A stretch of DNA of 64,000 nt from Coriobacteriia bacterium (GCA_030537355.1 JAUNNF010000002.1:1-64000); one strand, 5' to 3'. Numbered from the stretch's first letter, positions 1 to 21,945 are shown. Translations and numbers: made by a program. Notes: generated by a model from the letters alone, not told the origin.

Positions 1-3000
1 GAGTATCAGTATATGCAATAGGATTTTTGCATTCTGCATCATAATAAAAAGCATCACCATATTTTATATAAATTTCACCAGTACCGCCCTCTCCCGGATC
101 GTCGTTTAATGTAAGCTTAAATACTTTAGCTTCCCATTTTGCATAAAGAACTGTATCTGTGTCAAATTCTGATGGGCTAATTCCTTCAATTAATTTTCCA
201 TTAGAAGCAAGAATTTGTTTTTTGTAATCATCTCCCTCTTTGGTAAAGTAACCTAAAAATTCATAACCAGCCTTTTTAGGTAGAGTTATACCATCAAATG
301 GAGTAGAGCATTCAATATTATGGAAAAATCCTACTGTTCTTTTTTCATAAAAGGCTAGTTGTCCTGGATCTTCTGCTCCATCACTATTAAGCTCTAGTGT
401 ATATATGCCATTTTGCCAAGATGCATCAAGTGTCATATCACTAGTAAAATCATAAAGCGTAAACCCATAACCTAGTGTACCTTTTTCTGTTATAACCTGA
501 AATCCTTGCTCACCTTGAGTGTAATACCCGCAAAATTTATAACCTGGATTGGTAGGAATTTTTAGAGTATCAGTATATGCAATAGGATTTTTGCATTCTG
601 CATCATAATAAAAAGCATCGCCATATTTTATATAAATTTCACCAGAACCGCCTGTTCCGGGACTGTCATTTAATGTGAGCTTAAACACTTTAGGCTCCCA
701 TTTTGCATAAAGTGTTGTATTCGATTTAAAATAGTTTGGTGCTATTCCTGTAACAAATTTTCCATCCGGTCCTATTATTTGCTCAACAAAACCAGTTTCG
801 TCTTTAGTGTAATAACCATCAAAATTATATTCAGATTTTTCTGGAATTTCTATTGTTTCTAATTTTTCAACACAATATCTAGTAGCATAGAACCCTGTGT
901 CATATTTTTGATAAAATTTCTCGGTACCTTCATGACCTTCATCTGCATCTTGATTATCAAGTGTTATTTCATAAATATTTGGTGTCCATTTTGTATATAC
1001 TATTCCATCTGCGCTAAACGTATCAAAATAATTATAAATTCTACCTTCTTCATCTGTAAATGGTCTATCAAGGTTTTCTGAGTCTTTATAAAAATATCCA
1101 TCAAACCTATAATTATCCTTAGACAATTTTGTTAATTTATCTTTTTTCTGTGTACACGCTAAATCTGTAAAAAAGCCTACATCATATTTTTCGTAAAATG
1201 TTTCCATTTTAGACGTTCCGTCATATGAATTAATTTCATAGATATTTGGTTCCCATATTGCTTTAATTTCAAAGGTTTGATCTGGACCAGCATTATAATA
1301 TATTCTATAATTAAAATCATAATCTAGGTCTTGTACCGTACCATCGTTCCAATATATTTTCCATCCTAAGAAAGAATAACCTTTTCTTTCAGCGCTATGT
1401 TTTTCTAAGCGTTCTCCAGCATTTATTGAATAAGTTTTATTGTAGAGTTCAACACTATAGGTATCTATCTGTGAAACTGCCTCAAAACAATCTTCCCAAT
1501 GTTTAGCTAATTCTTTTCCAAAGCTTTTTTCTGCAAATGACTTGATATCAACATTGCTATCATGATAAACTCTGTTATCTCGAATATTACTATGACAAGA
1601 GGAATTGTTTGCATATATATAATCGCCCTTATAATCATCCCCACTCTTGTTTGTTTTATCAAATACACATTGCTTAACAGAAGAATCCGTTCCGTACGAT
1701 CCGATATATATTGCACCTCCATCTTCATCACTAGTATTGTTTTTGAAATAACAATTTGTTACTTTATTTGAGGAAGCACGTAACATTAAAGCTCCACCTT
1801 CGTCGTTTTCGGCGCGATTATTAATAAAATCTATATGATCTATTGATGTATTATTTCCTTCATCACCATTTACAGAGGTGTATATTGCTCCGCCATAATC
1901 TTCAGCTACACAATTTATAATACAACTACCATTCGTTAATTGTCCATTTTTTGAAAGACCTAATTGTTTTTGAAAATCATCATTAAAATTTCCTTTTATA
2001 GTAGCATAATTACTATCAATTTCAATTCCTCCACCCTTAACAGCCCTACAACCATCTATTGTTGTATTAATTAATGAAAACTCAGTATAATCCTTGAAAG
2101 TATAAATTGCACCTCCTAAACTGTCACATTTACATGTATCAAAAATACAATCATCAAAACAGAAACTATCATATTTCGTTTCTGAAGAAATAGCTCCTCC
2201 ATTATCCAAGCAAGAACAATTGCTAAATAATGTATGAGTAAACTTGTAGTTTGAGTGACTACTAGAAGCGCCATCTGAGCCATCAGTAGCTATTGCTCCT
2301 CCACTATCATCAGCATTACAATTCATAAAAGAACATTTATCAAAATTCATTAATTCATGATTGCTTTTAATGTAAATAGCACCACCGTCTGTGCTTGTAG
2401 TTTTGCATTTACTAAAAAAACAATTTGTAAAATTTATAGATGCGTCTGCAGAAGGTTGTCTATTAATATAAAAGCTTCCGCCTGTTTTAGCATATCCTGT
2501 AAAATAACAATTAGTAAAATCTGACGATTTCTCGTTATTGTTTTCAAAATAAACATGACCTCCATCACTAGGAAAATCATCTTCGTTTGAAGGTTTTGTA
2601 AAATTAACATATGATGCATGTATTGAAGCAGGTGAGCCACTAACTTTTATGGTTGAGTTCTGATTAGACTCCTGTATGTAGCCATAATTAGCTTCGTCTA
2701 CTCCATTTAAATATAGTGTTCCTTCAACATTAATTAACTGAAACGAATCATCATCATTTTGAGAATACAACGTATGTGTTCCTAAATCAACTGTAAGTTT
2801 TTTACCAACAGGAACATTTATTGTTTGATCTTTATACATAATATTTAAATTGTCATAAAGTTCAATACGAAGAGATGGTTCATTTATCCAATAAATATCC
2901 ATAGCATATTTTACATCGTAACTGTTTTGAAAATCGTAATACTCCCCCCTATCAGTTATAATTCTGCCAATTATTTTATTTTTTGCTTTTTCGTCTTTTT

Positions 3001-3232
3001 TCTTATCATTTTGAGCATCTGTCGCTTTAAAGGCTTTACCATCCTCAGTTTGTTGTTTTTTGTCCTCTATAACTTCCTTCTTCGTCTTAGAATCTTCAAT
3101 TTCAGTAGTATTTTGATTTTCATTGTTTATAACATCTGTTGCATTAGAAACGCCAACAAATAGAAAAGCCATAACCAAAGCAAAAACAAGTAATATTATT
3201 GCCAAATATTTTTTATTTTTTGTGTTATCCAT
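1..3232 (-). CDS. Giant surface protein with beta-helix and InlB-type repeats (3' end outside window)
   Basis: The reading frame runs from an ATG at 3232 off the left edge, about 1077 codons, and I saw no stop at the places I translated. It starts with a short basic segment and a hydrophobic signal peptide nearly identical to that of the next gene. An Asp/Lys/Glu-rich stretch follows, then a region of about 350 residues with repeated GGAI/GGG and N-C-x-F patterns typical of polymorphic-membrane-protein-like beta-helices. Last come InlB B-type (Flg_new/Listeria-Bacteroides) repeats of the form Y-E-K-Y-G-x-G-F-Y plus A-K-W. The likely role is adhesion or interaction at the cell surface. The C-terminal anchor lies outside the window. 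It is a tandem paralogue of the gene at 3288-9218, 55 bp away. Confidence 0.82.
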   Translation of the reverse strand, partial: MDNTKNKKYLAIILLVFALVMAFLFVGVSNATDVINNENQNTTEIEDSKTKKEVIEDKKQQTEDGKAFKATDAQNDKKKDEKAKNKIIGRIITDRGEYYDFQNSYDVKYAMDIYWINEPSLRIELYDNLNIMYKDQTINVPVGKKLTVDLGTHTLYSQNDDDSFQLINVEGTLYLNGVDEANYGYIQESNQNSTIKVSGSPASIHASYVNFTKPSNEDDFPSDGGHVYFENNNEKSSDFTNCYFTGYAKTGGSFYINRQPSADASINFTNCFFSKCKTTSTDGGAIYIKSNHELMNFDKCSFMNCNADDSGGAIATDGSDGASSSHSNYKFTHTLFSNCSCLDNGGAISSETKYDSFCFDDCIFDTCKCDSLGGAIYTFKDYTEFSLINTTIDGCRAVKGGGIEIDSNYATIKGNFNDDFQKQLGLSKNGQLTNGSCIINCVAEDYGGAIYTSVNGDEGNNTSIDHIDFINNRAENDEGGALMLRASSNKVTNCYFKNNTSDEDGGAIYIGSYGTDSSVKQCVFDKTNKSGDDYKGDYIYANNSSCHSNIRDNRVYHDSNVDIKSFAEKSFGKELAKHWEDCFEAVSQIDTYSVELYNKTYSINAGERLEKHSAERKGYSFLGWKIYWNDGTVQDLDYDFNYRIYYNAGPDQTFEIKAIWEPNIYEINSYDGTSKMETFYEKYDVGFFTDLACTQKKDKLTKLSKDNYRFDGYFYKDSENLDRPFTDEEGRIYNYFDTFSADGIVYTKWTPNIYEITLDNQDADEGHEGTEKFYQKYDTGFYATRYCVEKLETIEIPEKSEYNFDGYYTKDETGFVEQIIGPDGKFVTGIAPNYFKSNTTLYAKWEPKVFKLTLNDSPGTGGSGEIYIKYGDAFYYDAECKNPIAYTDTLKIPTNPGYKFCGYYTQGEQGFQVITEKGTLGYGFTLYDFTSDMTLDASWQNGIYTLELNSDGAEDPGQLAFYEKRTVGFFHNIECSTPFDGITLPKKAGYEFLGYFTKEGDDYKKQILASNGKLIEGISPSEFDTDTVLYAKWEAKVFKLTLNDDPGEGGTGEIYIKYGDAFYYDAECKNPIAYTDT

Positions 3233-3287
3233 ACACAAACCACCAATCTTTTTTTTGTTTATTATACCAAAAAAGTGAATTATATAG

Positions 3288-6200
3288 TTATTTTCGATGT
3301 TTTAGAAGATATCTTCCAGACAAAGCCAAAACACCAACTGATAAAATTATTATACAAATAATTATTCCTAACAAATCAAAACCACCGTTTGGAGCATCGT
3401 TTTGCGAATTATCATTAGCTAAATTAGTTGATGAATTATCATTATTATCTGAATTGTCATTATTAGCATTGTTGTCATTATTGCCATTATTTATATAATT
3501 ATTAGTATCATTGTTTCCTCCATGAGACGGATCATCATGTGGATCAACATCAGGACTAGTTATTTGCTTAAAATAAACATTAATTTCGACATCTCCAGCT
3601 GGCATTATAAATGAATAGTTTTTGTCAATTTGTAAGTCTTTAGGTGATATTGTTTCAATTTTATCGAGCTGATTATTGCTTTCAGGAATAATGGTTAAAG
3701 TAATTTTATCTCCCATAACGGCGCTATCTTTATCAACAAAAGTCTTACCTTGTCCTAAAGAATTTACTTTAATATTGTAATAATGAAGTTTCCATTTTGC
3801 ATAAAGCATTGTATCCGAGTCAAATTCTGTAGAACTAATTTCTTCCGCTAATGTTCCATCAGAATTAAGTATTTGCTTATCAAAATCATCCCCTTCTTTT
3901 GTAAAATAACCTTCAAAATCATATCCGGTTTTTTTAGGAAGCGTAATGTGGTCAAATTGTGTAGTACATTCAATATTATGGAAAAAACCTACTGTTCTTT
4001 TTTCATAAAAAGCTAATTGTCCTTGATAATCTGCTCCATTACTATTAAGTTCGAGAGTATATACACCTTCTTGCCAAAATGCCTTAAGAGTTATATCTTC
4101 AGTACATGTATAATAAGATAAACCATAGTTAAGTGTGCCTTTTTCGTTAATAATTTGAGCAGTAAGTTCTCCCTCTTCAACAGTATAATATCCACAAAAT
4201 TTATAACCTGGATTAGTAGGAATATTTAGTGCGTCTGTGTCTTTAATAGGGTTATTGCATTCCGCATCATAATAAAAGCCTATTCCATATTTTTCATAGA
4301 ATTGTTTACTACCACCCTCTCCCGGAGAATCATCTAAAGTGATTTTAAAAACTTTAGGTGTCCATTTTGCAACAAGAGTTGTATGAGAAGTGAAATATTT
4401 AGCATCAATTCCACTGACAAGTTTTCCATCGGTTCCTACAATAAGTTTATTGTTTGTATTAAAATAACCTTCAAACTCATAACCCGTTTTTACAGGAAGA
4501 TTAATTTTTTCAAAAAGGGTAGTACACTCAATATTATGGAAAAATCCAATGTCATATTTCTCGTAAAATACAGAAGTTCCTTGATGAGTTGGATCTGCAC
4601 CTTGATTGTCAAGAGTTATTTTGTAAACATGTTCCCATGAAGCTTTAAGTACAGTATCTTCTGTAAAATAAGTGTATGGAATACCTGAATTTAATTCACC
4701 TTCTTCATTTACGATTTGAGCATTACCATCACTTGTGTAATATCCACAAAAATCATATCCCTCACGAGTTGGAATTTTTAAAGGATTTATTATTTCATCT
4801 TCGCATTTTTCATCAGAATAAAAACCATCTTCAAATTTTTCATAGAATTGTTCACTACCACCCTCTCCCGGAGAATCATCTAAAGTAATTTTAAAAACTT
4901 TAGGTGTCCATTTTGCAACAAGAGTTGTATGAGAAGTGAAATATTTAGCATCAATTCCAATGACAAGTTTTCCATCAGCGCCTATTATAAGTTTATCTTC
5001 AGAGTCCTTATTTTCAAAATAACCTTTAAATTCATAACCTGTTTTTACAGGTAGCACAATCTTATCAAATTTAGTTGTACATTCAATATTATGAAAAAAT
5101 CCAATGTCATATTTCTCATATAACACAGAAGAACCTTGATGATCTTGGTCTGCACCTTTATTATCTAAGGTAATTTTGTATACATGTTCCCATGAAGCTT
5201 TAAGCTCAGTATCCTCAGTAAAATAAGTATAAGGTATACCCTTATTTAGATAACCTTCTTCATCAATAATTTGCGTGTTACCATCACTTGTATAATATCC
5301 ACAAAAATCATAACCTTCGCGAGTTGGAAGATTTAATGGATCGACTATTGCATGTTCACATTTTTCATCAGAATAAAAACCATCTTCAAATTTTTCATAG
5401 AATTGTCCACTACCGCCCTCTCCAGGATCATCATCTAATGTAATTTTAAATACTTTAACTGTCCATTTTGCAACAAGAGTTGTATGAGAAGTGAAATATT
5501 TAGCATCAATTCCACTGACAAGTTTTCCATCGGTTCCTATTATAAGTTTATCTTCTGAACCTTTATTTTCAAAATAACCTTCAAAATCATAACCCGTTTT
5601 TACAGGTAGCACAATCTTGTCAAATTTAGTTGTACATTCAATATTATGAAAAAATCCGAGATCATATTTCTCATAAAACACAGGAGTTCCTTGATGACTT
5701 GGATCTGCACCTTGATTATCTAAAGTAATTTTATAAACATGTTCCCATGAAGCTTTAAGTACAGTATCTTCTGTAAAATATGTGTATGGAATACCTGAAT
5801 TTAATTCACCTTCTTCATTTACGATTTGAGCATTACCATCACTTGTGTAATATCCACAAAAATCATATCCCTCACGAGTTGGAATTTTTAAAGGATTTAT
5901 TATTTCATCTTCGCATTTTTCATCAGAATAAAAACCATCTTCAAATTTTTCATAGAATTGTTCACTACCACCCTCTCCCGGAGAATCATCTAAAGTAATT
6001 TTAAAAACTTTAGGTGTCCATTTTGCAACAAGAGTTGTATGAGAAGTGAAATATTTAGCATCAATTCCACTGACAAGTTTTCCATCGGTTCCTATTATAA
6101 GTTTATCTTCTGAACCTTTATTTTCAAAATAACCTTCAAAATCATAACCCGTTTTTACAGGTAGCACAATCTTGTCAAATTTAGTTGTACATTCTTCATC

Positions 6201-9200
6201 TTGAAAAAATCCTACATCATATTTTTCATAAAACAATTCAGTCCCAGGATCATCAGCCTTTTGATTGTCGAGCGTTATCGTATACACATCGGTCCATTTT
6301 GCTTTTAGCACAGTATCGCTTGTAAAGTAAGTTTCTGAAATTTGATCAGTTTTATTACCTTCTTCGTCAATAAGCTTTGTATTATTAGAATAATAACCAC
6401 AAAAATCAAAACCACTACGTGTTGGAATAGTTATCGGAAAGCTTAATTTATCATGACATTCTGAATCACTATAAAATCCTTCGTTGTATTTTTCGTAAAA
6501 AGAATCAATACCACCTTCGCCTGAATCTTTGTTTAGGCTAATCGTATAAATCTTTGGCTCCCATTTGGCAAGTATCAAAGTATGTGAAGTAAACTTTAAA
6601 GCATTAACTTGAATTTCGCCTTTTTCATCAATTATTTGGTCAACTAATACCTTTCCATCACTAGTATAATATCCTTTAAAATCATAACCTTCTCTAACTG
6701 GAATATCGACTTTTTCAATCCTGGTAGAAGGAGAACATTTTTGCTCTGAATAAAATCCATCACCATATTTTTCATAAATATAGTTATAAGACTTAGCACC
6801 TGTATTGTCTAATGTAATTTCATAAACCTTTGGTTCCCATTTTGCAAGTATCTTAGTACCATCAGAAGTAAATTTTGAAGCATGAGCTTTAATTACTCCT
6901 TTTTCATCAATTATCTGGTCGACTAATACCTTACCATCACTAGTATAATATCCTTTAAAATCATAATTTTCTCTCTCTGGAATATTAACTTTATCAATCT
7001 TGGCAGAATCTGGACAAGTTTGATCTGAATAAAATCCGTCACCATATTTTTCATAAATTTGACCACTACCGCCTGACCCAGAAGCATCATCTAATGTTAT
7101 TTTATAGACATTAGGAATCCACTTTGGATAAAGTTCTGCTTTGTCAAGAAATACAGTAGCATCCACATTAAAAGATCCGTCCTGATTAATAATTTGCTTG
7201 TCAAATTGACCATCTTTTTTTATTGTGTAATAACCATCAAAAGTATAATTATCTTTTGTAGGAGGCGGAATTTTGTCTACTTCACTTTCACCTGCTCGAT
7301 CCCAATAAAAACCTTTTTCATATATTTCATAAATTCGGTGAATAAGTATGTCGTCTCTATGAATTATTATCTCATATGTATTTGCACTGAATAATGGTAT
7401 TACATAATAGGGTGTAAATGTTCTGTAAAGTTTATTAAATACTACATTTGTAGGAACATCGGGAGAATTCCATTCACGTTGTTCCCAATATTGAAATTCA
7501 TATCCTGTTTTTTGTGGTGGAACTAGATATTTTTCATCCACGTAATCACCGGGATTAACTTTTATAGTATCGTATTCTGAAGTAGCATTTCCTATGCGGA
7601 CATCATATTTAGGCCAAACTATAAGAAAATCAAAATGTCCTTTTAGCTCATCTTCTGTTTGTGGAATTTTATTGTTAAACATTCCTGGATCTGGCCCAGG
7701 TTGAGTAGTATATACGCGGTTATCCTTAATTGTTTGAAAAGTATCAGAATCGTCAATATAAACCTCATTAGCTTTATTATCCTCGTCTTCTAATCCACAA
7801 GTATTATTATAAAATAAGCAATATTCTATGATGCTCTCATCTCCATACGTGCCAACATAAATAGCTCCACCTGTTCCAGATTTTAAAGCTTTATTCCCTT
7901 GAAAAAGACAATTTGTTACTTTATTTTTACTTCCTCTTAAACATAAAGCACCACCATTACCATCTGTTGTATGATTATTCTTAAAATCAACATGATCTAT
8001 GGTAATATAGTTACCGCAACCAGATGCACTAGAAGTATAAATAGCTCCACCGTAGTAATCTCCATCTTCTGTATAACAATCTTCAAATAAAGAACTATTT
8101 GTAAATTGTCCATTCTCAATTTTTCCAATATATGTAGGATCAAAATCTCCTTTAATGCTTGAATTGCTTCCGTCAAATGCAAAAGCACCACCATGATCGT
8201 TCGCATGACATTTAGAAAAAACTGTATTTTTTAAAGTATAAATTTGATTATCTTTCCAGCTTGCAATAGCACCGCCTTCTCCATCGCTGGAGCAACTTAA
8301 AAATTTACAATTATCCAAATTAAAAGAAACCTTTTCACCCTTGTTTTTAATTGCGCCACCATCTCCATCAGATTTTTTAGCACAGCTATTTCTAAAGGTA
8401 CAGTTTTCTAATGTGAATAATTGGCCAGCCTCATTACTTTTATTAATATAAATATTGCCGCCTTGGCCTGCAGTTCCTCCAGTGAACTGGCAGTTTTTAA
8501 AGCTGGAATTTTTAGTAACTTTTTCAAAATAGAAATGTCCTCCTTCTGACGGATATTCGCCTTCTATACATGGGCCTCCAAAATCAATATTTGAAACGTT
8601 CACTAATCCTGACTCTTCAATATTAATTGTTGATTCATCGCTTGATTCTCGAATTAATCCGTGATTATTTTCGTCTGTACCATATATATTTAATGTTCCT
8701 TTGTTGTTAATTAGCTGTTTCGAATCACCATCATCTTCAGAATATAACGTGTGTGTCCCTAAATATATATTAAGTAATTTACCCTGATTAACCTCAATAG
8801 TATTGTTAGACAAATTACAGTCTTTATAGAAAGTAACATTAAGAAATGACCAACCTTCCCAAGCAGTTTTTATATCACTAACTAAATCAGGACCTGAATA
8901 AAATTTAATTCCAAATTGTCCTTCATACGAAATCTCTCCCATTGCTTCTTCATTGTTATGTGAGGTTTTGCTGTTATCTTTATTTTCTTTAGCTTTATTG
9001 TTAGTGTCTATAGCTTTAGAATCTTCGATATCAACAGTCTGTTGTTGCTCATCTTTTTTAACATCTTGCGCCTTAGAATCTTCAATATCAGCAGTATTTT
9101 GATTTTCTTCATTGATAACATCTGATGCATTAGAAACGCCAACAAATAGAAAAGCCATAACCAAAGCAAAAACAAGTAATATTATTGCCAAATATTTTTT

Positions 9201-9218
9201 GTTATTTGTATTATCCAT
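3288..9218 (-). CDS. Giant surface protein, beta-helix stalk plus about 14 InlB-type repeats
   Basis: This is a 1976-residue protein. Residues about 8-31 form a signal peptide, followed by a charged linker with three EDSKA repeats. Residues about 110-500 hold a Pmp-like beta-helix with GGAI/GGAF and F-x-N/C motifs. Residues about 560-1830 hold roughly 14 InlB B/Flg_new repeats, each with Y-K-I-T-L-D, F-Y-E-K-Y, G-Y-D-F-x-G-Y and A-K-W motifs. An Asn/Asp-rich spacer, one hydrophobic segment and a basic tail end the protein. Unlike the other surface proteins here it has no TGD motif before the last hydrophobic segment. The repeat DNA is nearly identical between units, so copy number may vary. 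An adhesin or stalk role is an inference from the architecture. Confidence 0.9.
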   Translation of the reverse strand: MDNTNNKKYLAIILLVFALVMAFLFVGVSNASDVINEENQNTADIEDSKAQDVKKDEQQQTVDIEDSKAIDTNNKAKENKDNSKTSHNNEEAMGEISYEGQFGIKFYSGPDLVSDIKTAWEGWSFLNVTFYKDCNLSNNTIEVNQGKLLNIYLGTHTLYSEDDGDSKQLINNKGTLNIYGTDENNHGLIRESSDESTINIEESGLVNVSNIDFGGPCIEGEYPSEGGHFYFEKVTKNSSFKNCQFTGGTAGQGGNIYINKSNEAGQLFTLENCTFRNSCAKKSDGDGGAIKNKGEKVSFNLDNCKFLSCSSDGEGGAIASWKDNQIYTLKNTVFSKCHANDHGGAFAFDGSNSSIKGDFDPTYIGKIENGQFTNSSLFEDCYTEDGDYYGGAIYTSSASGCGNYITIDHVDFKNNHTTDGNGGALCLRGSKNKVTNCLFQGNKALKSGTGGAIYVGTYGDESIIEYCLFYNNTCGLEDEDNKANEVYIDDSDTFQTIKDNRVYTTQPGPDPGMFNNKIPQTEDELKGHFDFLIVWPKYDVRIGNATSEYDTIKVNPGDYVDEKYLVPPQKTGYEFQYWEQREWNSPDVPTNVVFNKLYRTFTPYYVIPLFSANTYEIIIHRDDILIHRIYEIYEKGFYWDRAGESEVDKIPPPTKDNYTFDGYYTIKKDGQFDKQIINQDGSFNVDATVFLDKAELYPKWIPNVYKITLDDASGSGGSGQIYEKYGDGFYSDQTCPDSAKIDKVNIPERENYDFKGYYTSDGKVLVDQIIDEKGVIKAHASKFTSDGTKILAKWEPKVYEITLDNTGAKSYNYIYEKYGDGFYSEQKCSPSTRIEKVDIPVREGYDFKGYYTSDGKVLVDQIIDEKGEIQVNALKFTSHTLILAKWEPKIYTISLNKDSGEGGIDSFYEKYNEGFYSDSECHDKLSFPITIPTRSGFDFCGYYSNNTKLIDEEGNKTDQISETYFTSDTVLKAKWTDVYTITLDNQKADDPGTELFYEKYDVGFFQDEECTTKFDKIVLPVKTGYDFEGYFENKGSEDKLIIGTDGKLVSGIDAKYFTSHTTLVAKWTPKVFKITLDDSPGEGGSEQFYEKFEDGFYSDEKCEDEIINPLKIPTREGYDFCGYYTSDGNAQIVNEEGELNSGIPYTYFTEDTVLKASWEHVYKITLDNQGADPSHQGTPVFYEKYDLGFFHNIECTTKFDKIVLPVKTGYDFEGYFENKGSEDKLIIGTDGKLVSGIDAKYFTSHTTLVAKWTVKVFKITLDDDPGEGGSGQFYEKFEDGFYSDEKCEHAIVDPLNLPTREGYDFCGYYTSDGNTQIIDEEGYLNKGIPYTYFTEDTELKASWEHVYKITLDNKGADQDHQGSSVLYEKYDIGFFHNIECTTKFDKIVLPVKTGYEFKGYFENKDSEDKLIIGADGKLVIGIDAKYFTSHTTLVAKWTPKVFKITLDDSPGEGGSEQFYEKFEDGFYSDEKCEDEIINPLKIPTREGYDFCGYYTSDGNAQIVNEEGELNSGIPYTYFTEDTVLKASWEHVYKITLDNQGADPTHQGTSVFYEKYDIGFFHNIECTTLFEKINLPVKTGYEFEGYFNTNNKLIVGTDGKLVSGIDAKYFTSHTTLVAKWTPKVFKITLDDSPGEGGSKQFYEKYGIGFYYDAECNNPIKDTDALNIPTNPGYKFCGYYTVEEGELTAQIINEKGTLNYGLSYYTCTEDITLKAFWQEGVYTLELNSNGADYQGQLAFYEKRTVGFFHNIECTTQFDHITLPKKTGYDFEGYFTKEGDDFDKQILNSDGTLAEEISSTEFDSDTMLYAKWKLHYYNIKVNSLGQGKTFVDKDSAVMGDKITLTIIPESNNQLDKIETISPKDLQIDKNYSFIMPAGDVEINVYFKQITSPDVDPHDDPSHGGNNDTNNYINNGNNDNNANNDNSDNNDNSSTNLANDNSQNDAPNGGFDLLGIIICIIILSVGVLALSGRYLLKHRK
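4345..6200 (-). repeat. Intragenic near-identical tandem units of about 550 bp
   Basis: Equivalent points of the repeat lie at 4351, 4897, 5452 and 6007, so the unit is 546-555 bp (about 185 residues, two InlB-type repeats each). The stretch 4681-4959 is identical by eye to 5791-6069, an offset of 1110 bp. Such long perfect direct repeats allow unit gain or loss by recombination, and they can also be collapsed or mis-ordered in an assembly. Confidence 0.9.
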
Positions 9219-17323: not shown

Positions 17324-17398
17324 TGGTGGTCGATGCAGGATTCGAACCTGCGACCTTGTGCTTGTAAGGCACCTGCGCTCCCGCTGCGCCAATCGACC
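17324..17398 (-). tRNA. tRNA-Val(TAC)
   Basis: The minus strand folds as a cloverleaf with acceptor GGTCGAT/ATCGACC, anticodon loop CTTACAA (TAC), T-arm GGTTCGAATCC and an encoded CCA end. Confidence 0.97.
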
Positions 17399-17449: not shown

Positions 17450-18538
17450 TTATTTTTTTAAAGCTTTAATAAAAGTTTTGATATCTCTTGATTTGAAAAA
17501 CTTTTTATACAACAATACCCAATATATTGGCAAAAATATAGAATATTTTGGATATTTTTGACCTCGATCTTTAAGACTTGTTTTGCTAGGGAAAAAATAA
17601 GAAAAGAACAATCTAGGACTTTTACCATATTTTTTAAATTTATTTTGTACATAATTTTCAGTAGTCCCATATACGCCAGCACCAACCATGTTTCTTATCT
17701 CTTCAATATCTAGATCACCAAGTTCTAACATTTCACTATCAAACAATTTATAACTTAATTCTCTACCTCTCAACTCAAAATCAGCAATATTAAGCTTATC
17801 AGCAACTTTACTAACATAATTTATATCAAGATTTGGTTTATGTTTTAAATATATATAAATATCAATTAAGAACTTAAAACCAGAACCAGTAACTTCAGTA
17901 TGCTTATAGCGATGACACACAACACTCAAGTAAAAATCTTCATCATTAAATTTTCTACAATAAGAATTGTTATTTTTAACTAATCTATTATCAAGGTCAC
18001 TGAAATAATTAAAAAATTCAAGATAAGGATTTTTGTTAAACAATCTTTTATGAAATTCAAAATTAAAAACAGGCTTTTTTGTGTACATATTATGTAGTTC
18101 ACCAGTTTCAACATCATAACCATTATTGTCCATGTACTTATTTAATAAATTCTCATAATTGGTGTCAAATAATATGTCATTATCTCCCATCTCTCTAAGG
18201 CCGTATTCAGGGTACAATTCTTTGATAACAAGACCTTTTAGTGGGCAATACCAAATTTTATTATCGTTTAAAAATTCGTAAATTTTCTTTCGCTCCGCTT
18301 CAAACATCATCTCTCTTTTTATACTTTTGACAAAATCTGTTTCCCAATATTGATTTTTAAAGCCGTCACTTTTTTTAAGTGCATAATAAACAATATTTGA
18401 TACATTTTGCTTTTTAGAATTCATAAAAAGTTGTTTCAGATTTACATTGTCAATTCTTTTTTTGTCAGGAGTTTTGTTATTAAGACCACAATATAAAAAA
18501 TATATTAAATCAGCAATATCTTTTTCAATACTAGGCAT
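17450..18538 (-). CDS. Nucleotidyltransferase-family protein of a RiPP-like operon
   Basis: This 362-residue protein matches the NTP_transf_5 type of uncharacterised nucleotidyltransferases. It has the KGLVIKELYP segment at 101-110 and the acidic pair in MGDNDILFD (Asp119, Asp121) expected for metal binding. Such proteins occur in paeninodin-type lasso-peptide clusters together with HprK-like kinases and PqqD-like proteins, where their role is not settled. It is the last gene of a five-gene operon and its start overlaps the ABC transporter gene by 8 bp. tRNA-Val follows 50 bp downstream. Modification of a peptide or carrier is an inference only. Confidence 0.8.
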   Translation of the reverse strand: MPSIEKDIADLIYFLYCGLNNKTPDKKRIDNVNLKQLFMNSKKQNVSNIVYYALKKSDGFKNQYWETDFVKSIKREMMFEAERKKIYEFLNDNKIWYCPLKGLVIKELYPEYGLREMGDNDILFDTNYENLLNKYMDNNGYDVETGELHNMYTKKPVFNFEFHKRLFNKNPYLEFFNYFSDLDNRLVKNNNSYCRKFNDEDFYLSVVCHRYKHTEVTGSGFKFLIDIYIYLKHKPNLDINYVSKVADKLNIADFELRGRELSYKLFDSEMLELGDLDIEEIRNMVGAGVYGTTENYVQNKFKKYGKSPRLFFSYFFPSKTSLKDRGQKYPKYSIFLPIYWVLLYKKFFKSRDIKTFIKALKK

Positions 18539-20135
18539 TTATTTTAAATTCCTTATCACAAATTTTGCGAGCAGCTTCCCTGTGGGTCACAATAACAACT
18601 GTTCGGTCAGTCATGCTTTTAAGATTTTTCAAAAGCTTACTTTCTGTAGACGAATCAAGTGCACTTGTACATTCGTCCAATAAAAGAACAGGATTATTTG
18701 TAGCTATAGCTCTTGCAATTGCAAGACGCTGTAACTGCCCTTCTGAAAGTCCAGAACCAGCTTCTCCAAGTTCTCTATCAAGGTTATCTACAAAATTTTC
18801 AGCACAAGCTATTTTTAGCGCTCCCCATATTTCCTCATCAGATTTATTTTGTCCAAAAGAAACAGCATCACGTATAGAACCGCTCATCATAAAATTTCCT
18901 TGAGGCACATAAGCAAATAAATTTCTATATGCTGGAGTAATTACTTGATTATCAACTAAACATTTACCAGATTGAGGTTGATATATTGCCATTAGTAATT
19001 TAAGCATTGTACTTTTACCTATACCCGATTCACCTATAAACGCGATGCAATCACCTTTATTTATTTCTAAATTAACGTCTTTTAATACTGGCAACTTGTC
19101 ATAAGCAAAATCAACGTGTGAAAACTTTAATGTATTAAAGCCTGGATTATTAATTGGCTCTACAGAATCATTAGAAAAATCTTCAACATCCATTAATCTC
19201 TCAGCACTTGCAAGCATTGCATAATACTGTGGGACATAAGCACTAATATTTGAAAAAGGCAGTTGTATTTGATTAACAAGCTGTATTACTGCAACAAACG
19301 TTCCATACGTCAAAACATCAGTTAAAATTCCATAACCACAATAAATGGCACTTATTACATATGCTCCTGTAAAAACAACAGTAATACCTACGTTTGCGGT
19401 ATTTGAAAATGCTAAGCGTTTTAATCTTGCCTGCTTATGTTCATGCATTCTTTTCTTTGCTCCAACAATAGATTCTTTCTCGCGAACAAAAGCTTTAACA
19501 ATTAACAAATTCGACAATCGTTCTGACAAAAACACACGTAAGCGACCATCAGTTTCCTGAATTTTTTTATGCAAAGTTTTAAGTTTTTTTCTAAACAAAT
19601 AAGTAATTATAAGTATAAGCAAACCAAACGGCACAAGCACAAAAACAAACTCTGGTACCAGCAACAACATCAAAATAATTGCCGCAATAAGCTTTACAAC
19701 TAAACCTGTAACTTGAGGTAATATTGTTGTCATCCCATTTGCAACAATAACGCAATCGTTGGTCAATCTATTTAACCACTCGCCAGAGTGAGTAGATGTT
19801 ACTGATGCATAATCTTTGTGTAAAATATTTGTAAAAACACGTGTTTTAAAATTGTTTTCAAAAGTTGCAGCTGTATATTCATCAATAAAACGCAACAGTG
19901 CACTAACACAAATATTCAAAACCATTAGGCATACTAAAAATATTGCATTACTCCAAAATCCGTTCCAATCATGTGCAACTGCGGTATCAACTAGTCCTCT
20001 AAATAGCCAAGCATAAAGGACTCCTGTAATACCAATTAAACTCTGCAAAACAATCAAGAAAACAATATTAATTTTTGTTTTACCAGAAATTTGCCAAATC
20101 CATTTTATCGTTTTATTTTTTCTTTTAGTTTCCAT
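18531..20135 (-). CDS. ABC exporter (fused membrane and ATPase domains) of a RiPP-like operon
   Basis: This 534-residue half transporter has six membrane helices in about 20-300 and a C-terminal ATPase. Walker A GESGIGKST is at about 365-373, the signature is LSEGQLQRLAIARA, Walker B is LLLDECTSALD and the H-loop is VTHR. There is no N-terminal C39 peptidase domain, so any leader cleavage must be done by another protein, possibly the S26-type peptidase encoded just upstream. The gene overlaps the upstream peptidase gene by 31 bp. The family and context suggest peptide or small-molecule export. Confidence 0.88.
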   Translation of the reverse strand: METKRKNKTIKWIWQISGKTKINIVFLIVLQSLIGITGVLYAWLFRGLVDTAVAHDWNGFWSNAIFLVCLMVLNICVSALLRFIDEYTAATFENNFKTRVFTNILHKDYASVTSTHSGEWLNRLTNDCVIVANGMTTILPQVTGLVVKLIAAIILMLLLVPEFVFVLVPFGLLILIITYLFRKKLKTLHKKIQETDGRLRVFLSERLSNLLIVKAFVREKESIVGAKKRMHEHKQARLKRLAFSNTANVGITVVFTGAYVISAIYCGYGILTDVLTYGTFVAVIQLVNQIQLPFSNISAYVPQYYAMLASAERLMDVEDFSNDSVEPINNPGFNTLKFSHVDFAYDKLPVLKDVNLEINKGDCIAFIGESGIGKSTMLKLLMAIYQPQSGKCLVDNQVITPAYRNLFAYVPQGNFMMSGSIRDAVSFGQNKSDEEIWGALKIACAENFVDNLDRELGEAGSGLSEGQLQRLAIARAIATNNPVLLLDECTSALDSSTESKLLKNLKSMTDRTVVIVTHREAARKICDKEFKINA

Positions 20136-20539
20136 TTAATCTTTCTTGCTGCTAATAAAAAATATCTTAAAATAAATATTTTACATATAAGATTTAAATA
20201 AATTTTGTATTTTTTTGAATTAATCGGAATTTGTTTACCGTCTCGTACAATTTCTTTTAAAACGCCAATGATTTGACTTTCTGCTACATTATGTTCAACT
20301 GATATACAATTATCACCAGCTATTGTATATGTTTTGTTACCAACTTCAATGATTCTATGCAAAACATATTTATCGTCTCTTTTAAACAAAACAATATCGT
20401 ATTTTTTACATGGAAATTTAGGCTTTTTAATTACGAGCAAATCCCTGTATTGTCTTATCAAGGGATACATAGATATACCAACATTGTTATAAACTAAGTG
20501 TCCATGCTCGTTTATTTCATGTTCAAATGTACTTTTCAC
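20105..20539 (-). CDS. S24/S26-family peptidase (signal-peptidase-like)
   Basis: This 144-residue protein has the signal peptidase I-type motif GISMYP with candidate nucleophile Ser23, then KYDIVLFKRDDKYVLHRI and an AGDN motif at 74-77. The residue at the usual general-base position is His61 (L-H-R-I), as in the SipW/SEC11 branch, rather than Lys. A basic hydrophobic stretch at the C-terminus (about 105-130) could sit in the membrane. Its ATGA overlap with the PqqD gene shows translational coupling. It may trim a leader peptide in this operon, which has no other protease. Confidence 0.78.
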   Translation of the reverse strand: MKSTFEHEINEHGHLVYNNVGISMYPLIRQYRDLLVIKKPKFPCKKYDIVLFKRDDKYVLHRIIEVGNKTYTIAGDNCISVEHNVAESQIIGVLKEIVRDGKQIPINSKKYKIYLNLICKIFILRYFLLAARKIKWKLKEKIKR

Positions 20540-20793
20540 TCAAGAGCACCTATTGAATTTAACTGATCGATAACTCCTTCAACGTCACGTTTAATTACAT
20601 CTTTAGGAGCATCAAAAGTATTATACATAGCATCTACAATCTCATTAATATCAGTCTCTTTAGATAAACAATCAACAACAAAAGCAGCTGTTTGATTATT
20701 TCTTACAATACCTGAGAAATCCTTGTTTTCCACATCTACCAGAACTTGCTCTCCGTCAACTATATGTGTAAGAAAATTTGATTTTAGCTTCAT
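20536..20793 (-). CDS. PqqD-like peptide-chaperone protein
   Basis: This 85-residue protein has the PqqD-type pattern: an N-terminal basic beta strand, D-F-S-G-I-V-R-N-N-Q-T-A-A-F-V-V-D-C-L and a helical C-terminus with I-D-Q-L-x-x-I-G-A-L-E. PqqD-like domains (RiPP recognition elements) bind the leader of a ribosomal peptide and present it to modifying enzymes. It overlaps both neighbours by 4 bp (ATGA). No radical SAM enzyme, lasso cyclase or precursor peptide is visible nearby, so the substrate is unknown. Confidence 0.82.
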   Translation of the reverse strand: MKLKSNFLTHIVDGEQVLVDVENKDFSGIVRNNQTAAFVVDCLSKETDINEIVDAMYNTFDAPKDVIKRDVEGVIDQLNSIGALE

Positions 20794-21485
20794 TGCGACA
20801 TCCTTTCAAATGCAATTTTTGCAGCTTCTATATCTGGTCTGCATTCAAGATTATATAATTTAACAGAGCGAAGCATTTTGTCAGCCAAATTTAGGGTCTG
20901 AATAACTTTGTCAGCTGATTCTGGTTTATATATTTGTTTTAATATTGGTGTAAAATCATCAAGTTCTGTAATTTTATTTTCATCAGCTTGATTTATCATA
21001 CAAATAGCTTTTAATGGTGCACAAATATTATTTGAACGATGGTGTTTTCCGTCCCAAGGTGTGCCATATACATAAGCCAAACCATCATCAGATATTTTAA
21101 TAAGCGGCTTATCGTCATTGATCATACGAGCTCGAGATTCTAAATTTTTACACCATAAAGCTGCGTGTGTACTTTTACCAACACCGCTAATTCCCGCAAA
21201 CAAATAAGCAACATCGTCAACAGCAATTGCCGAACCGTGAAACAAAAAAGTATCGTAATCAAGCATTTTAGTTGCAATCTTTCTATAAATAGCGAGAGTT
21301 TCTAAATAATCATCGCTATAACTTGCATCTTGTTCTGCGTCAATGTCTTCTTGAATAATATTTACTTTAAAATCAGGATTTTCATCAGTCAAATAATCCT
21401 TACACATATCTTGAGTTAAGGAATGTAAGCAACTAACTTGAATATTTTTTTCTGCTAACTGTATTTTAAATTCAACTTTGTCCAT
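20790..21485 (-). CDS. HprK-like serine kinase of a RiPP-like operon
   Basis: This 231-residue protein has Walker A GISGVGKS at 98-105, preceded by LFHGSAIAVDD, and an N-D-D-K-P segment at 123-127, as in HPr kinase/phosphorylase-like proteins. Members of this branch in paeninodin-type lasso clusters phosphorylate the C-terminal serine of the precursor. It is the first gene of the operon. The next gene starts within its stop codon. Its own upstream region is short and shared with the oppositely oriented rnpB. Automatic annotation may call it a PEP carboxykinase-like protein because of the shared P-loop fold. Confidence 0.82.
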   Translation of the reverse strand: MDKVEFKIQLAEKNIQVSCLHSLTQDMCKDYLTDENPDFKVNIIQEDIDAEQDASYSDDYLETLAIYRKIATKMLDYDTFLFHGSAIAVDDVAYLFAGISGVGKSTHAALWCKNLESRARMINDDKPLIKISDDGLAYVYGTPWDGKHHRSNNICAPLKAICMINQADENKITELDDFTPILKQIYKPESADKVIQTLNLADKMLRSVKLYNLECRPDIEAAKIAFERMSQ

Positions 21486-21569
21486 TGGTTATATTATAGT
21501 ATATTCTGAAAGCCCTAATCAACTAATCCTACATTATCAAATTTTAGTTAAAAATCTTAATTTAAGCGT

Positions 21570-21587: not shown

Positions 21588-21945
21588 AAAAGAGTGGGCT
21601 ATGGGAATCGCGTCATTAACGACGAGGAAAGTCCGGGCTCCAAAGGGCAGGATGCCAGCTAACGGCTGGGCGGGGCAACCCGACGGATAGTGCCGCAGAA
21701 AGGGAAACTCTCACTGACGCGCTTGCGCGTTAAGAGAAAAGCTGAAAAGGTGCGGTAAGAGCGCACCAGCATCTTGGAAACAAGATGGCTTGGTAAACCC
21801 CATCCGGAGCAAACGCAAATAGGGATGCAATGATGTGTGCCCGCATCGCATTCGGGTTGCGCGCTTGAGGTAAGCAGCGATGCTTATCCTAGATAAATGA
21901 TTCTCACAAGACAGAACCCGGCTTATAGGCCCGCTCTTGAATTTT
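21588..21945 (+). ncRNA. rnpB: RNase P RNA, type A
   Basis: The ends pair as helix P1 (AAGAGTGGGC at 21590-21599 with GCCCGCTCTT at 21929-21938). The universal core is present: GAGGAAAGTCCGGGCTCC near the 5' end, GGTGCGGTAAGAGCGCACC in the middle and ACAGAACCCGGCTTATAGG near the 3' end. The overall plan is the ancestral type A, not the Bacillus type B. The RNA is the catalytic part of the enzyme that matures tRNA 5' ends. Confidence 0.96.

Follow-up and report, generated by a model that had tools for sequence, protein, structure and literature searches.

The window analysed here, a stretch of 64,000 nucleotides, carries five co-oriented genes, K, B, S, D and N, between positions 17450 and 21485 of its minus strand (Table 1). 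ORF calling confirmed the coordinates of the first-pass annotation, and the overlaps along the operon were recomputed as the same 4, 4, 31 and 8 bp. Two large ORFs of the secreted type lie about 8 kb downstream, and neither has a leader peptide of the kind described below in front of it. The GC content of the operon is 30.5%, compared with 34.9% for the window, and K is patchy in the family, being found in three of the 41 nearest genomes with one of the three matches weak. The low GC content and the patchy distribution suggest horizontal acquisition. The host is almost surely a member of the Coriobacteriales (Actinomycetota). This placement was made because G389, labelled as belonging to the same order as the genome of the window (G000), and G399, the genome of locus L018 with the title Atopobiaceae, yield the same hits, with coordinates that also agree; the two are almost surely the same genome.

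Table 1. Features of the window and of other loci named in the text. Positions refer to the window unless a locus or contig is given.
Feature	Position	Strand	Remarks
K, predicted HprK-like peptide kinase	20790-21485	-	231 aa
B, PqqD-family RRE, putative leader-binding protein	20536-20793	-	85 aa
S, predicted SipW/archaeal-type S26 leader peptidase	20105-20539	-	144 aa, GTG start
D, MsbA-like ABC exporter	18531-20135	-	534 aa
N, NTP_transf_5 nucleotidyltransferase	17450-18538	-	362 aa
Candidate promoter directly 5' of K	21493-21522	-	TTGATT-18-TATAAT; 10/12 consensus match, which is not evidence of function
RNase P RNA (class A), boundary	21591-21941	+	Divergent from the operon; Rfam RF00010, 292 bits
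tRNA gene, boundary	17327-17398	-	Downstream of N; Rfam RF00005
Large secreted-type ORF	3288-9218	-	1976 aa; List_Bact repeats, N-terminal anchor, C-terminal membrane segment
Large secreted-type ORF	2-3238	-	At least 1079 aa; PMP-like repeats
Radical SAM/SPASM enzyme	L001 (G000:C12:96641-99850), 64-1491	-
Second PqqD protein	L001, 1495-1770	-
K-B (kinase-RRE) fusions	L035, 7995-8993; L057, 7911-8909
K-S (kinase-peptidase) fusion	L080, 1588-2742
Two identical precursors	L095 (G000:C4:64815 and 71432)
C-terminal domain of about 260 aa	L016, L026, L028, L033, L035, L036, L040, L044, L048, L057, L062, L069, L169, L175, L180

The five proteins and their relatives

Profile searches, which had been proposed as a check on the family assignments, upheld two of them and left two below their thresholds. 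B matches PqqD (PF05402, E 3e-14) and N matches NTP_transf_5 (PF14907, E about 6e-33), whereas K gives sub-threshold matches to HprK profiles (E 0.007) and the match of S to archaeal-type signal peptidase I (E 1e-6) stays under the curated cut-off. D combines ABC_membrane and ABC_tran, that is, transmembrane and ATPase domains, and lacks a C39 peptidase domain. The AlphaFold2 model of K (pLDDT 96) has L. casei HprK/P (1kkm, E 9e-7) and PEPCK as its nearest structural matches, and K as modelled has the HprK fold. Its motifs include a Walker A sequence, GISGVGKST, at residue 98, NDDKP at 123, and GTPWDGKHH at 141; an alignment of 47 sequences shows no variation in the Walker A core or in NDDKP. 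S, which would fill the protease role ascribed to it in the first-pass annotation, has a predicted Ser23/His61/Asp76 triad that is invariant among 38 aligned sequences. A single-sequence phmmer search with B against the PDB gave no match at E up to 1, and an alignment profile (A3) was needed to find the solved RREs TbiB1, TfuB1, PbaB1, and LppB (9x8z, E 1.7e-5). The RREs of lasso peptide systems score better than LppB in this comparison.

Relatives of K were sought in one genome per species, and 80 loci with homologues 39-49% identical were returned, mostly from genomes titled Lachnospiraceae, Oscillospiraceae, or other Clostridia, with some from Bacteroidales and Atopobiaceae. Tens of other genomes have genes for B, S, D, and N grouped with K, more than expected by chance. 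The only widely recurring genes are K, B, S, D, and N themselves, followed by a radical SAM/SPASM enzyme at 11 loci. Natural fusions of K with B and of K with S (Table 1) suggest that the three proteins act together. Two kinds of neighbor were considered and rejected as parts of the module. A small conserved gene near some K loci (c7) is not a precursor but GrcA, a glycyl radical cofactor in a pyruvate formate-lyase locus, and the biotin carboxylase and carboxyltransferase genes beside Bacteroidales K loci look like housekeeping genes.

Candidate precursors and their co-occurrence with the kinase

In several relatives, short ORFs beside the module have a common leader, MKxKYExPEMExIxFExEDIITxS, which can be condensed to YxxPxxExIxFxxxDIIxxS. 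A leader profile (A2) built without sequences from G000 found ten candidate peptides in that genome, among them MIEKKYESPRLEIIDDFQVDIITTSCQGNKCPTHQGCVIGDKPQLNTLDDDLPNQF and MTSKKQYVRPKFEAIEFTVKDIILTSIICRPHCNPNTGCPTEQYLMDDDIIN; E ranges from 4e-6 to 0.25 and is below 0.01 for seven of the ten. All ten lie outside the window: four on contig C4, two each on C5 and C10, one on C7 about 110 kb away, and a weak one on C13 (E 0.03). When sequences from the genome itself were added to the profile, nine of the peptides were found at E about 1e-8 or better, a gain that is partly circular. The leader profile detected no precursor in any frame of the window, where the best score, about 3 bits, is at chance level. 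Many relatives have precursors adjoining the cluster, whereas the operon of G000 has none near it. The first-pass annotation had thus been right that the locus lacks a precursor, its suggestion of a substrate encoded elsewhere or by a very small gene agrees with the ten candidates, and the search that it recommended, for the same gene order with a conserved short gene nearby, showed the module in tens of genomes, with leader ORFs beside it at many loci.

The distribution of leader and kinase was surveyed in 398 genomes of the class, with K counted at E up to 1e-20 and the leader at E up to 1e-4. K was found in 22 genomes and the leader in seven, all of which belong to the 22; several of the 22 K hits are partial or weak and come without leaders. 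The hypergeometric probability of this overlap is 6e-10, or 1e-8 without G000, although phylogenetic relatedness makes the former value optimistic. The leaders lie on contigs other than that of K in G000, G341, G345, and G389. Twenty further genomes, from which K loci of other taxa had come, were searched as well. Leaders were present in 14 of them, as many as seven in one genome and spread over as many as six contigs, often not that of K; the profile had no hit in the other six, four of which are titled Bacteroidales. The 14 include genomes whose fetched K locus had no leader (L005, L011, L018, L042, L049, L054, and L078). Dispersed precursors are therefore general, with the caveat that many of the genomes are fragmented MAGs. 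Since no precursor adjoins the operon of G000, the assignment of its substrates rests on co-occurrence and homology.

Large secreted proteins beside the precursors

Immediately downstream of each of the nine strong peptides of G000, at a distance of 2-54 bp or with an overlap, is an ORF of 600-3000 aa; with one exception, these large ORFs as called encode a hydrophobic segment at the N-terminus. The ORF that the weak peptide on C13 precedes has 3101 aa. On contig C4, two precursors of identical sequence are followed by large proteins with identical N-termini; the gene pair seems to be duplicated as one block. Among relatives, the large gene mostly lies upstream of the precursor and sometimes overlaps it by a few bases (L022, L025, L055). 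A gene was counted as paired when an ORF of 600 aa or more on the same strand, with a hydrophobic segment at its N-terminus, lay no more than 100 bp away. This held for 24 of the 63 precursors and for 20 of the 1055 other genes in these loci, the loci not being independent of one another. For more than one third of the precursors, no ORF of the large secreted type lies within 1 kb. The domains of the large proteins are varied and include LRR_5, Big_2, and List_Bact repeats, beta-helix, and subtilase.

In other genomes, many large secreted proteins that lie near K or precursors and otherwise differ from one another have a C-terminal domain of about 260 aa in common (Table 1). It yields a confident model (pLDDT 93), with no match in Pfam or NCBIfam and no convincing fold in the PDB. 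The domain occurs in six genomes of the class, four of which also have K; it is absent from G000 and is thus not a required part of the system. In one Lachnospiraceae genome (G418; L161, L162, L165, and L166), a small lipoprotein-like gene of about 200 aa is found between exoprotein and precursor five times.

Comparison with known systems and interpretation

Linear polyphosphorylated peptides (LPPs) are a RiPP family published in May 2026 (Popov et al., Nat Commun 17:6633; PMC13381572). As the main text of that paper describes it, the locus of Paenibacillus alginolyticus has the order lppA-K-B-S-D-N, LppB binds YxxP leaders (structure 9x8z), and LppK phosphorylates Ser3 of the core, with multiple phosphorylation. 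LppS cleaved the leader in vitro only with LppB, and deletion of lppN had no visible effect. The leader motif is given as YxxPxVLxHQxIxFETxxS. The family is stated to be restricted to Bacillota; the main text is silent on Clostridia, Bacteroidota, and radical SAM enzymes, and the supplement may hold Clostridial members (PMC13381572).

The five enzymes of the window and their order are those of lppKBSDN, so this machinery is already published and cannot be called an undescribed system, as the first-pass annotation had proposed. Its reading of the locus as RiPP-like, with maturation and export of a peptide, is supported. Further likenesses are a discrete RRE, the absence of a cyclase, and a SipW-like leader peptidase with a Ser/His/Asp triad that corresponds to S29/H68/D93 of LppS. 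Asn33 and Asp70 of B are at positions equivalent to N33 and D70, leader-contact residues of LppB. Both leader types have YxxP followed by an invariant Ser 18-19 residues past the Tyr; the spacing is 19 in 50 of 54 peptides and 18 in the LPP motif, which aligns the invariant Ser with the phosphorylated Ser3. The leader of the G000 type keeps the Tyr, the Pro, the hydrophobic pattern, and the Ser, but lacks the HQ and FET elements. Other differences are that the precursors of G000 are about ten dispersed copies outside the operon, paired with giant secreted proteins rather than situated in capsule loci, that the host belongs to Actinomycetota and the relatives mainly to Clostridia, that radical SAM/SPASM enzymes occur in some related loci, and that B does not score best against LppB.

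We consider it highly probable that the operon is an LPP-type RiPP maturation and export operon that acts in trans on about ten dispersed precursors of the same genome. By analogy with the LPP homologue, for which biochemical work exists, B would bind the YxxP leader as an extended strand and present the peptide, K would phosphorylate, perhaps more than once, the invariant Ser where leader and core meet, S would cut near this Ser in dependence on B, and D would export the core. More speculatively, N may extend the phosphate by a nucleotide or a sugar-phosphate group, the radical SAM/SPASM enzyme and second PqqD protein of contig C12 may further modify the same peptides, and the modified peptide may work together with the large exoprotein encoded beside it.

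LPP and paeninodin clusters often reside in capsule loci (PMC13381572), and N and K together could build a phospho-nucleotide or sugar link. The operon might then serve the biogenesis of a polysaccharide or surface polymer, with the short peptides, paired as they are with large surface-type proteins, acting as glycan primers or anchors and not as a released product. This is unlikely, as the window operon contains no glycosyltransferase and, in the loci examined, no family other than K, B, S, D, N, and the radical SAM enzyme is widely recurrent.

The radical SAM/PqqD pair of G000 offers another potential destination for the leader peptides. Its radical SAM enzyme is 34% identical (E 6e-89) to those inside KBS-rSAM-N-D operons and resembles the SPASM-type RiPP maturases of TIGR04463, with matches far under the curated cut-off. 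Enzymes of this group, which have a PqqD partner, are encoded in G000 and inside several related operons; none is encoded in the window operon. It is very improbable that the peptides are substrates of this pair alone while the five-gene operon acts on another target, even though radical SAM homologues and precursors are neighbours at about ten loci and at least two Cys are present in 17 of 54 cores. Precursors stand beside K-module genes with no radical SAM gene in the fetched stretch at many loci (among them L022, L026, L033, L040, L043, and L044), the conserved Ser and the YxxP element are consistent with action by K, B, and S, and the presence of leaders tracks K across the 398 genomes.

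The window operon shares the HprK-like kinase, PqqD/RRE protein, NTP_transf_5 protein, and ABC exporter with paeninodin clusters (PMC13381572), as well as the YxxP/WxxP leader logic, which agrees with the relationship to paeninodin-type lasso loci that had been noted from the outset; the lasso cyclase and the transglutaminase-like B2 protease are missing, as was also noted, and an S26 peptidase is present instead. The idea of a degraded or partial lasso cluster, with cyclase and B2 lost or elsewhere, is disfavoured and scarcely credible despite these shared parts and the lasso RREs as best solved matches of B, given that the 93% complete genome has no hit to Transglut_core3 (PF13471, B2), that its one strong match to Asn_synthase, a protein of 618 aa, is encoded on another contig (C4), that the five genes recur without B2 and C, and with their own peptidase S, in many genomes, and that the precursors are of the YxxP and not the WxxP type.

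Returning to the LPP-type operon acting in trans, we tentatively propose a wider role, which may well prove wrong: one machine would modify dispersed peptides, each dedicated, as ligand, anchor, or subunit, to the giant secreted protein encoded with it, and thus equip surface proteins in gut Actinomycetota and Clostridia by a RiPP-based route instead of forming an antibiotic pathway. That precursors are paired with large secreted proteins resembling adhesins or proteases is a genomic hint of such a role. The published precursor search was confined to 5 kb around clusters (PMC13381572), and cluster-based mining of this kind can therefore miss most precursors. The present results place a RiPP family that was studied in Bacilli in gut Actinomycetota and in many Clostridia as well. 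With one operon and about ten scattered substrates in a genome of 1.5 Mb, the purpose of these phosphorylated peptides becomes directly testable.
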